From Halorubrum sp. 48-1-W (GTDB lineage Archaea; Halobacteriota; Halobacteria; Halobacteriales; Haloferacaceae): DNA of 55,765 nt. Shown here piece by piece: positions 1,697-55,765 of this stretch (positions within the stretch are counted from its first letter, which is position 1; each line of letters starts with the position of its first letter). A program made the position numbers and the translations under genes. The notes below the pieces were generated by a model that did no database searches, had not been told where the DNA came from, and saw only the letters and a list, made by a program, of their open reading frames with translations. The stretch is taken from NCBI RefSeq assembly GCF_003287355.1, contig NZ_QMIM01000031.1, positions 1 to 55,765 of the forward strand, in the 5' to 3' direction.

Positions 1697-2332
1697 CTAC
1701 CTATCCTGACGTTCTCTTTCTATTATCTGTTCCAACTCTTTCTGAGTCATGACTGCCGAGAACAGATCAGGGTTCAACCGTTCGCCAAGCTGTCGATATG
1801 CGCGTTCGGACAACCAATAATACTGTAAGGTGTCGTCAAAGCGTGCCGCAATCGCCTCACCTTCGCTATCTAAGAAGTATGCGTGTGTCAGACCAGGAAT
1901 ATACAACGACAGCACGGCTTCGACTACATCTGGGGTCGTAGCGCATCGCCCCTGAATCGTTCCATCATTGTACTCGCTCTCGACGTACGAGATTTCACTT
2001 TCTAGGAGCGTCTTGACGGCCTCTTCATTCCGATTCCGGAGAAATTCATCTATCCCGTGAACTCCGACTGTGGCTACTTTCCGAGGATTTACGTCCAGAA
2101 CTGCTTCCGTAATCGTTCGTGCGAATTCGTGGTATCGGTCCGACGGAAGTCCGTCTTTATCCAGGATGTATTTCGTTTCGTCGTCCGGTCCGTCAACGGA
2201 TTCGTGGAAACCGCTCGCCTTCTTGGTGGTCTCCATCCTGGCTTTGATAGCCTCCTCTAATTCGTCCATATCCACCTCTCCTAACATCTGAGCGAGTCGT
2301 TCACTTCCACTGGGCTTACTCCCGTTTGACAT
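1697..2332 (-). CDS. Hypothetical protein, IS-unit cargo
   Basis: This 211-aa soluble acidic protein has no signal peptide, membrane segment or motif that I can name. Its N-terminal third is helical and charged (GEVDMDELEEAIKARMETTKK). The middle (residues about 60-140) looks like a mixed alpha/beta domain, and the end is again helical. It ends 44 bp inside the left terminal repeat of the unit at 1637. Its start lies only a few bases from the right-end hairpin of the IS200/IS605 element, so that insertion has replaced whatever promoter it had. An immunity or partner role is possible, but nothing in the sequence shows it. Confidence 0.65.
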   Translation of the reverse strand: MSNGSKPSGSERLAQMLGEVDMDELEEAIKARMETTKKASGFHESVDGPDDETKYILDKDGLPSDRYHEFARTITEAVLDVNPRKVATVGVHGIDEFLRNRNEEAVKTLLESEISYVESEYNDGTIQGRCATTPDVVEAVLSLYIPGLTHAYFLDSEGEAIAARFDDTLQYYWLSERAYRQLGERLNPDLFSAVMTQKELEQIIERERQDR

Positions 2333-2340
2333 TAGTAAAC

Positions 2341-2440
2341 AGCCTCGGGCGCGGTGGCCCGAGGCTTTTTGTAATTCCCTCAGCCGTGCGCTAGCACTCC
2401 CTGCTCGGCAAGCGAGCGGGATGAGGGTGGGCGGCTTACG
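2341..2440 (-). ncRNA. Candidate omega (reRNA) scaffold at the tnpB 3' end
   Basis: TnpB guide RNAs of known IS605 elements come from the 3' end of tnpB through the right end. Here the minus strand carries a strong 8-bp stem hairpin at 2343-2366 (GCCTCGGG pairing with CCCGAGGC). GC-rich segments lie upstream, overlapping the tnpB stop. The guide would be the bases beyond about 2340, which fall on the start of the 211-aa gene. This is inferred from family knowledge, with no transcript evidence. Confidence 0.4.
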
Positions 2441-3684
2441 CGCCCCGACCCGGACAGACGCACCAACCGTACTTGCGGCTGGGTTTTGTGAGTCCGGTAA
2501 TTCGTTGTGTTCCCATCGAGTTTCGCCTTCTCACGCCACGCGATGTTCACTGATGCATTCCGGTCAGCGTGGTCTTGCACCACGTCACACTCCTCGTTCG
2601 GACAACGGAACCGCCGTCCCTGCCGATCTCCACGCTCACCACAGCACGAACACGTCTGCGAGTTATAGTACGCATCCACCGTATCCGTGGGAATCTCTCG
2701 CCATGTCGCCTTGTACGAGACAAACTTCTCGAACTTGTGGAACGGCAGTTTGTGCAATCGGCGGTTCATATACGCCCCGTACTTGATTTCGCCCCGGATG
2801 CCGCTCATGTCCTCGAACACGATAACCGGATTCGAGTACTGCTCTGCGAACTCCACAACAGCACGGGAAAGCCGATGCAACACCCACTCGGTGAACCGCT
2901 CCTCCTTGTCACCGAGTGTGTGGTAGATGCTCGTTTTGCCGTGTTCTTGACAGCGAGTGGTGATAGTGTGGTAGCGTTGGCGTTCCTGCTTGACTCGTCC
3001 GTAATCGAGGACGAGTGTACCTTTCGTCTGCATCGTCTCGCGGTCAAGCGCGGTGAGTGCGACGTTGCGCTCGTTGATGTCCACGCCAACCAGCGTTTCG
3101 GCGGTGTCGGGTTCGGGCACGTCGAACTCGCGTGTGACCGTGACGTGTAGGGAGTACACGCCATTGCGGTACAGGAGTTCGGCCTGCCCCACATCCACCT
3201 CATCCGACGTGAGGGCATCTCGAAGTTCGTCCATCGCGTCCGGCTCGCCGCGCAGATGACCCCTCACCTTCTTGTAGGGTTTTGGGCTGATGCGGAACTG
3301 GACGCGGTTCGTGTCGTTGTCCACGGTGAGGCGGTAGCCTTCCGTGTGCGCCATCACGAGTGGATACGCACCAGATTTGTCCGTACTCGGCGGCGTCGGC
3401 TTGCCGCCATCGGGGTCGTCTTGATTTTCCCACCACTCTTTGAGCGATTGGTAGGAGTCCCACGTTTGGAGTGCTTTGCCGACGACCGCGCACTTGTTGT
3501 TCCGCAAGAAGTCGTCGCGGTCAACCTCCTTCTGTATCCCGGTGCGATTGTACCCTTGCTGTTTGAGGCGGATGGTCTCGTTGAAGATTTCGCGTGAGGC
3601 GAGGTGAGCGTCGTGAAGCCACGACCGTTCACCAGACGCTATGTGAAGACGCGTCTGAATCGTCTTCGTAGCTTCCTCACCCAT
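2380..3684 (-). CDS. tnpB: RNA-guided endonuclease TnpB (IS200/IS605)
   Basis: The protein has 434 aa. RuvC-like catalytic residues are all present: D202 in GVDINERN, E291 in VFEDMSG and D374 in DHADRNA. A four-cysteine zinc finger (C345, C348, C361, C366) sits between the last two. The N-terminal region is a typical OFD/wedge-REC-like segment. TnpB nucleases use an RNA from the transposon end to cut the empty donor site next to the transposon-associated motif, which favours retention of the element. The C-terminal tail after residue 390 is Arg/Ser-rich and overlaps the presumed omega RNA. It is divergent from tnpA and probably shares the promoter region between them. Confidence 0.92.
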   Translation of the reverse strand: MGEEATKTIQTRLHIASGERSWLHDAHLASREIFNETIRLKQQGYNRTGIQKEVDRDDFLRNNKCAVVGKALQTWDSYQSLKEWWENQDDPDGGKPTPPSTDKSGAYPLVMAHTEGYRLTVDNDTNRVQFRISPKPYKKVRGHLRGEPDAMDELRDALTSDEVDVGQAELLYRNGVYSLHVTVTREFDVPEPDTAETLVGVDINERNVALTALDRETMQTKGTLVLDYGRVKQERQRYHTITTRCQEHGKTSIYHTLGDKEERFTEWVLHRLSRAVVEFAEQYSNPVIVFEDMSGIRGEIKYGAYMNRRLHKLPFHKFEKFVSYKATWREIPTDTVDAYYNSQTCSCCGERGDRQGRRFRCPNEECDVVQDHADRNASVNIAWREKAKLDGNTTNYRTHKTQPQVRLVRLSGSGRVSRPPSSRSLAEQGVLAHG

Positions 3685-3728: not shown

Positions 3729-4136
3729 ATGGAAAAGTACCGTAGTCACGCACATTCGGTTAGTTCCTGTAAGTATCACTTCGTCTGGTGTCCGAAGTAT
3801 CGCCACCCTATTCTCGATGTAGTGGAGGACGATGTGCGAGAGTTGTTTGGTGAGACTGCCGACCACTTCGGTCACGAAATTCTGGCGTTGGAGATCGCGG
3901 ACGACCACGTACACTTGTTCGTGCAAACAGACCCGAATCACAGTCCGGCGGACATTGCTCGGCAATTCAAGTCGTACTCGGGTAAGCACTTGCTGGAGCG
4001 GTATCCCGAGATTCGGGAGGCGTATTTCTGGGGTGGTGGATTCTGGAAGGTCGGGTACTACGTGGGAACGACGGGAGCGGTGTCGGAAGAAGTGGTTGAA
4101 CGGTATATCGAAGAGACGGAACACGCGCCAGAGTGA
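3729..4136 (+). CDS. tnpA: IS200/IS605 transposase TnpA (HUH, Y1)
   Basis: This 135-aa protein has the normal length of the family. It carries the HUH motif (H60 and H62 in DDHVHLFV) that binds the metal ion and the single catalytic tyrosine (Y126 in VERYIEET). TnpA dimers cut and rejoin single-stranded DNA at subterminal hairpins on the lagging strand. The frame is complete and begins with an ATG soon after the tnpB start on the other strand. A hairpin of the expected type follows its stop. Confidence 0.93.
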   Translation: MEKYRSHAHSVSSCKYHFVWCPKYRHPILDVVEDDVRELFGETADHFGHEILALEIADDHVHLFVQTDPNHSPADIARQFKSYSGKHLLERYPEIREAYFWGGGFWKVGYYVGTTGAVSEEVVERYIEETEHAPE

Positions 4137-19089: not shown

Positions 19090-19198
19090 TCGGGGGATCG
19101 TTCGGCCGGACGGGTCTTATACTGTCGGCCGGATGGTCGGTCGCGCATCCGTCACGGGGGGAATCGCTCAGTACAGCCTCAGAACGATCACTTGTAGT

Positions 19199-19465
19199 GC
19201 GGTGGCGCGTGCCTCCGAGCGCCGCGGCCGCGGCGCTCGGAGAACCGCGCGAGGGAGATCGAGGTGACCCGCCGGCGGTTCCGGCGGGTTACCGAGACCG
19301 AGGCTGGGGAGGCGTGAGGTGCGGGGCTGTGCGGGGTGGGACTCAAAGGGGCAGTCGCGAGGAGGCCGTAGGCGACACAAGCACCGCAACGAGGGAGCGA
19401 TAGCGACCGAGTGAGGAGCGCAGCGAGCGTACGGCCTCCTCGCGGCTGGGGCTTTGGAGGTGTTT
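19199..19465 (+). ncRNA. Structured repeat, copy 1 (candidate RNA)
   Basis: This copy shares conserved blocks with the one at 55595: GCGGTGGCGCG at the 5' end, GAGGCTGGGGAGGCGTGAGG at 19300-19319, TCAAAGGGGCAG at 19343-19354 and AAGCACCGCA at 19379-19388. Pairing is extensive. GCGGT 19199-19203 pairs with ACCGC 19244-19248 around a 15-bp stem (19213-19227 with 19228-19242), and 19268-19275 pairs with 19281-19288. A third stem, 15 bp long, joins 19356-19370 to 19430-19444. The unpaired blocks are purine-rich on the plus strand, so I assign that strand. It ends near GGGGCTTTGGAGG. No transcript is known to me. Confidence 0.55.
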
Positions 19466-19607
19466 ACCGTGTCGGCAACGCTCCCGTACTCACTGACCCG
19501 ATCCCCATCCAAACGACCGTACTATTAACGGCCGGCCTCCATCGGTCGATTCACGAGTTCACGAGGCACCGGATCGCCACGAACGGCTCCGAGACGTTCC
19601 TCGACTC

Positions 19608-55594: not shown

Positions 55595-55765
55595 GCGGTG
55601 GCGCGCCTGCGAGCGCCCGCAAGGGCGCGAGCAGACCGCGAGGGACGTGGTGAGCGCTCGAAGAGCGCGAACCACGAGGCTGGGGAGGCGTGAGGTGCGG
55701 TGCGGTTCGGGTGGGGTTCAAAGGGGCAGCCGCGAGGGCGACGCCCGGCGACGTAAGCACCGCAG
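55595..55765 (+). ncRNA. Structured repeat, copy 2 (candidate RNA, cut by window end)
   Basis: The copy has the same blocks as copy 1: GCGGTGGCGCG, GAGGCTGGGGAGGCGTGAGG at 55676-55695, TCAAAGGGGCAG at 55718-55729 and AAGCACCGCA at 55755-55764. Helices differ in sequence but keep pairing. In hairpin 1 the stem CTGC-GA-GCGCCC closes a GCAA tetraloop; in hairpin 2 GTGGT-GA-GCGCTC closes GAA. Both carry symmetric GA/GA internal loops. TGCGGTGC 55696-55703 can pair with GCACCGCA 55757-55764. About 80-90 bases at the 3' end are outside the window. Confidence 0.55.

Follow-up and report, generated by a model that had tools for sequence, protein, structure and literature searches.

A haloarchaeal intergenic repeat family with a conserved fold and interchangeable hairpins

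The window, that is, the whole stretch of 55,765 nt analysed here, carries two members of a haloarchaeal intergenic repeat with swapping hairpins, copy 1 at 19199-19468 and copy 2 at 55595-55765. The family is real, extends across the class and is apparently undescribed. It can be classed with structured intergenic repeats such as BOX, REPIN and PATE, and has the high copy number, intergenic position, modular build and stem-loop formation of BOX/ERIC-like repeats; what is new in it is the exchange of hairpins under an unchanged fold. A single, defined strand folds, and this fold is kept while the sequence turns over. We lean, with moderate confidence, towards a mosaic, mobile-type palindromic repeat family that is strictly intergenic and folds as single-stranded DNA.

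All parts of copy 1 are given on the plus strand. The 5' flank (19165-19198) holds the motif TCAGTACAG, which recurs upstream of many Halorubrum copies, and is followed by island A, GCGGTGGCGCG (19199-19209), hairpin H1 (19205-19250), the partly unpaired island CGCGAGGGA (19248-19257), hairpin H2 (19260-19299) and island B, GAGGCTGGGGAGGCGTGAGGTGCGG (19300-19324). Both hairpins vary among copies, H1 often with a tandem GA/GA step. The core hairpin (19335-19455; 85.7 bits with model R1) runs in the order island C GGTGGGACTCAAAGGGG, P1, inner hairpin, P1' and GGGGCTTT; its 5' arm (19344-19373) comprises P0 (CAAAG), an unpaired GGG and the 5' arm of P1, and its 3' arm (19427-19456) the 3' arm of P1, an unpaired GGG and P0 (CTTTG). 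The conserved 3' extension GAGGTGTTTACC (19457-19468) is followed in many other copies by tandem units repeating GCTGGGGCTTTGGAGGTGTT. The block of about 265 bp proposed in the sequence-only reading was thus found, except that the unit does not end at 19465 and runs to about 19468, with the conserved CTTTGGAGGTGTTYACC. The recurrence of the block at 55595 was also borne out, both copies being in place with shared islands (GCGGTGGCGCG, CGCGAGGGA, CGAGGCTGGGGAGGCGTGAGGTGCGG and GGTGGG..TCAAAGGGGCAG) and differing intervening hairpins. Copy 2 (55595-55765, plus strand) extends from island A through H1, H2 and island B into the 5' half of the core, which scores 39.1 bits from 55710. As the window is a whole contig (G000:C17) ending at 55765, copy 2 is cut there and its 3' stem arms would lie past the contig end. 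The invariant parts had been taken as unpaired, which is right for the GGG/GGG loop but not for the CAAAG of island 3, which pairs with the CTTTG of island 4.

The core shared among genera begins with GGTGGGACT[G/C]AAAGGGG, followed by stem P1, GAA and stem P2, which carries a conserved C.C or A.C mismatch; then come GACGYAAG, P3 (GCACC/GGAGC with a central A.A or A.C), a small hairpin, GCAGCGAG, P2', GA, P1' and GGGGCTTT[C/G]. AAAG is base-paired to CTTT, enclosing an unpaired GGG/GGG loop. The small hairpins are short helices alternating with tandem GA/GA steps, and such a step was present in 173 of the 251 core hairpins counted. Halorubrum copies carry the extra 5' domain with H1 and H2 and frequently have tandem 3' units of about 50-57 bp. 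At L010, L035, L037, L215 and L229 these units repeat GCGGCTGGGGCTTTGGAGGTGTT, which in many tandem 3' units is directly preceded by TTTATAAGCG, a sequence also present in island A of some copies. A variant core at L172 and L175 keeps the outer islands and P1 and has a different inner part (GACCCCTATC..GATATGTCGGT.AGCGACCG), while P1 starts with CTTCC at L296, L299 and L309, which are not deletions. Two-hairpin modules in either orientation lie within the cores of several genera (L002, L011, L026, L027, L028, L030, L123 and L146) and are of two kinds, AGCAG-hp-GGCAG-hp-GACA and GTGGTTCGA-hp-TCGTCATCACGA-hp-TCGAACGAC. The sequence GTGGGACTGAAAG resembles the 3'-terminal part of type I-B CRISPR repeats and has no other features of such repeats.

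The covariance model found the core in 203 of the 242 Halobacteria genomes sampled, representing 64 of 74 genera. In a phylum-wide sample of 197 genomes, core matches occurred in 29 of about 33 haloarchaea and, among the matches listed, in none of the approximately 164 other genomes. Three genomes of the window's genus, Halorubrum, contained at least 87, 129 and 147 copies, respectively (E<=1e-8, among 150 candidates scored per genome), and a genome of another genus contained 86 at a looser cut-off. The source draft genome (3.58 Mb) gave 56 BLAST matches to the repeat and 34 covariance-model hits to its core, so that the two copies noticed in the window exist but are members of a many-copy family, not a pair. 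The repeat is an abundant non-coding feature of Halorubrum genomes, present in most of the haloarchaea sampled. It also breaks assemblies. Many contig ends of the draft G000 (C5, C9, C12, C19, C29, C40, C42, C10, C22 and the window at 55765) lie inside copies or within about 250 bp of them. Both copies were without a match in Rfam at the gathering score, as had been expected of an undescribed repeat, and the best match below threshold was sbcD (22 bits, with 40 needed). Literature searches, both with the sequences of the islands and on palindromic repeats of haloarchaea, with subscription journals mostly outside the search, gave no description of it. No phage record contained the repeat, and four viral-contig matches to a 17-mer were rejected on inspection, as the repeat fold was absent.

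The analysis of 28 diverse cores, selected partly by P1 pairing and with the P2 and P3 alignment read by eye, showed that 99.1% of 756 cells were paired and that 19 of 27 pairs were altered on both sides. The covariation score was 0.661, compared with 0.156 for column shuffles and 0.07-0.10 for slid partners, so the covariation anticipated for the hairpins lies far beyond both controls; P2 and P3 covary as well, although neither served in selecting copies. The plus strand folds better than dinucleotide shuffles, both as RNA (z -5.5) and as DNA (z -4.2). Among P1 pairs a transition away from Watson-Crick pairing, G.T outnumbers A.C on the plus strand (51 versus 13), which identifies the plus strand as the folding strand, and the tandem GA steps likewise indicate plus-strand folding. 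The repeat lends itself to testing whether strong covariation is proof of an RNA, since folded DNA and swaps of whole hairpins can give the same signature.

The clearest clue on RNA versus DNA comes from the loops, which hint at the rules of DNA mini-hairpins. Three-base loops close 217 of 251 core hairpins (about 86%), 112 of them as C-GNA-G, while among the same 251 hairpins GNRA tetraloops occur three times and UNCG tetraloops never. Triloops make up 79% in core hairpins, compared with 33% in other intergenic and 19% in coding hairpins of the same loci. GNA and GNNA loops are described as forming exceptionally stable DNA mini-hairpins (PMC4686876). The frequency of G.U is suggestive as a discriminator, with 2.6% in P1 and 5.0% in the RNase P RNA of the class, which is a weak difference. 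Taken in detail, the repeat suggests folding as single-stranded DNA, in the manner of mobile repeats, at least as much as a functional RNA.

None of the 167 parsed copies overlaps a gene called by a simple codon-usage caller, though coding sequence makes up 78% of the total. The recurrence between genes of other haloarchaea, as put forward in the sequence-only reading, is supported. Copies show almost no preferred direction relative to neighbouring genes, although convergent gaps hold slightly more of them than expected and divergent gaps fewer (P=0.045). Copies are slightly enriched downstream of same-strand genes (88/149, P=0.03), and the same-strand and opposite-strand contexts do not differ (42 versus 33). 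No gene family recurs beside the copies, a tnpB-type gene included. Lagging-strand targeting was rejected, as no strand domains were seen along three chromosomes among the matches listed (at least 44-58 copies each). No promoter signal was seen outside Halorubrum. The 87 cores lacking the 5' domain show no TATA-like signal at any constant distance upstream, and of 78 Halorubrum copies about one in four carries a TATA-like box at approximately -15 of island A. Cores arranged head-to-head about 30 bp apart were found at L092, L104, L120, L121, L123, L189, L240 and L250, several with a TTGRYCAA-like centre and, in the pairs inspected, with stems differing between the members; with this spacing, the room for two promoters is often no more than about 30 bp.

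The site of copy 1, between polX and nhaC, is occupied in five species including the source and empty in two, one of which is the closest by the polX query (92%). Among species sharing the adjoining flank, the hairpins at this site are wholly different, and the comparison gave no clean insertion boundary from which a target duplication or exact ends could be defined. At a second site, compared in 29 species of the Natrinema group, the core is present in 17 (degenerate in one), exactly deleted in five and missing in seven. The five exact deletions leave AAAGGGGCTT[T/C]C, the core being lost precisely between two GGGGC repeats. In a species pair with 93% identical neighbouring genes, the P1 stems differ by five double changes and no single one. 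Compensatory change, as proposed earlier, thus accounts for part of the variation, base by base, and replacement of whole hairpins for another part; the G.T pairs, the mismatches and the whole replacements indicate that stepwise change and replacement both occur.

These results favour a mobile repeat folding as single-stranded DNA on several grounds: the high dispersed copy number, the lack of gene overlap and the near-even direction; the occupied and empty states of the polX-nhaC site, the hairpin replacement and the exact deletions at GGGGC repeats; plus-strand folding as indicated by the tandem GA steps and the excess of G.T over A.C; and C-GNA-G triloops unlike other hairpins of the same loci. 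Mobility would follow from the dispersion and from the occupied and empty sites. Constant G-rich islands would hold interchangeable hairpins, and the fold would act as single-stranded DNA, recognised by a putative trans-acting enzyme that mobilises or copies the repeat, so that the repeat may be non-autonomous and work in the manner of REPIN, BOX or PATE repeats. The islands would permit ectopic recombination to exchange whole hairpins between copies, whereby both stem arms would change together; cores may be lost through slippage from one GGGGC direct repeat to the other at the hairpin base, and effects on adjacent genes would be incidental. Counting against mobility, neither the Y1 transposase counts nor the neighbouring genes revealed a mobilising enzyme, and the reading is further weakened in that the analysis defined neither a target duplication nor exact ends and saw no strand domains, by the persistence of some sites across many species and by the TATA-like box 15 nt upstream in about a quarter of Halorubrum copies. 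The triloops, too, could reflect the copying or correction of palindromes instead of a selected fold of single-stranded DNA. The more specific proposal that selection maintains the elaborate folded single-stranded DNA, with its tandem sheared G.A pairs, GNA tips and G-tract loop, as the functional form, e.g., as an attC-like substrate for recombination or mobilisation by a putative enzyme, is one we regard as possible and put forward tentatively. If it is true, a so far unknown DNA-processing enzyme is implied.

The sequence-only reading had regarded the repeat as a likely RNA family; the results do not support going from the fold to an RNA. A functional RNA role is possible all the same: some or all copies may be transcribed from the plus strand into a structured RNA, protein-bound or forming an mRNA tail, with the high copy number stemming from past duplication. 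The strong covariation with conserved mismatches, the stronger z as RNA than as DNA, the plus-strand tolerance of G.T over A.C, the TATA-like box of the Halorubrum subset and the slight same-strand downstream excess are all consistent with it. Transcription as the common rule fits poorly with the 87 cores lacking a TATA signal, the closely spaced head-to-head copies and the indifference to gene direction, and an RNA function with loops unlike those of RNA hairpins, the weakly lower G.U frequency and the toleration of exact deletion at five of the 22 motif-bearing sites in the Natrinema group; on the whole, we find this reading rather unlikely.

Another reading gives the fold no selected function, its palindromes being kept perfect by mutation, through template switching inside hairpins and recombination among copies. 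The whole-hairpin replacement, the compact triloop tips and the near-perfect stems fit this, but palindrome correction would erase the internal mismatches and tandem GA steps, which persist at fixed places, and neither the asymmetry of G.T over A.C nor the conservation of the islands across the class fits, so we judge it improbable. Still less credit can be given to the core hairpin as a small mobile element inserting into a pre-existing GGTGGGACTGAAAGGGGCTTTC target in the way of SMR-A of Haloquadratum. The exact full and empty alleles between GGGGC repeats, the two other two-hairpin modules sitting within cores, and the size and insertion habit of SMR-A (PMC3119063) speak for it, but the empty forms are too rare beside full ones to be unused targets and are absent from the copy-free genomes listed, and therefore look like deletions.

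With regard to known systems, Y1 (IS200-type) transposases were rejected as the mobiliser because their number does not track copy number: genomes G045 and G057 combine many copies with the absence of any Y1 gene, while G001, G008 and G029 have four or five Y1 genes and no copies. Repeat islands were found at none of the 30 Y1 loci fetched; one Y1 gene outside these loci (G000:C69:97249-97599) has a copy no more than about 180 bp away. Integron attC sites have conserved ends, a variable stem and terminal part and an unpaired spacer, and act as a folded single strand; the likeness of the haloarchaeal repeat to them is a resemblance only, as no integrase or cassette array was identified here. 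The sot2652 or TnpB-associated omega RNA (RF02657) is likewise a haloarchaeal structured non-coding sequence, but the repeat has no Rfam match and no recurring adjacent tnpB-type gene. Near the start of the window, a sot2652 match (2319-2501, minus strand) and a Y1 transposase gene (3756-4115, plus strand) lie about 1.3 kb apart.

The PATE and SMR-A elements of Haloquadratum (PMC3119063) are also haloarchaeal, transposase-free and palindromic, with no target duplication seen and with nested hairpin modules. SMR-A elements, of about 110 bp and without target duplications, insert into near-terminal palindromes (PMC3119063). The size and inverted arms of the repeat fit this description and, compared by description and not by sequence, the copy identity does not, as more than 95% identity is reported among SMR-A copies and the cores vary freely in their stems. 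Inverted ends of the GGTAGTGTTCA type surround some copies (L069, L118, G187) and not those of Halorubrum; in one group of genomes (L069, L118, L243, L249 and L259) they enclose the copies as though an IS-like or MITE-like unit were carrying them. REP/REPIN sequences with TnpA-REP (PMC3116915, PMC6006769) share dispersed extragenic palindromes, strand-specific folding and head-to-head pairs. The haloarchaeal fold is much larger, with no GTAG/GTGG foot recognised and with Y1 numbers that do not track copies, and mobilisation of the REP/REPIN kind by TnpA-REP was rejected, as no cognate repeat-flanked Y1 gene was found among the 30 loci fetched. BOX of Streptococcus pneumoniae (PMC3049150), likened to the repeat by description and not by sequence, is also a high-copy composite intergenic element with modules that include a tandem part and stable stem-loops, and is probably mobilised in trans; the haloarchaeal repeat differs from it in swapping hairpin sequences while keeping the fold and in spanning a whole archaeal class.
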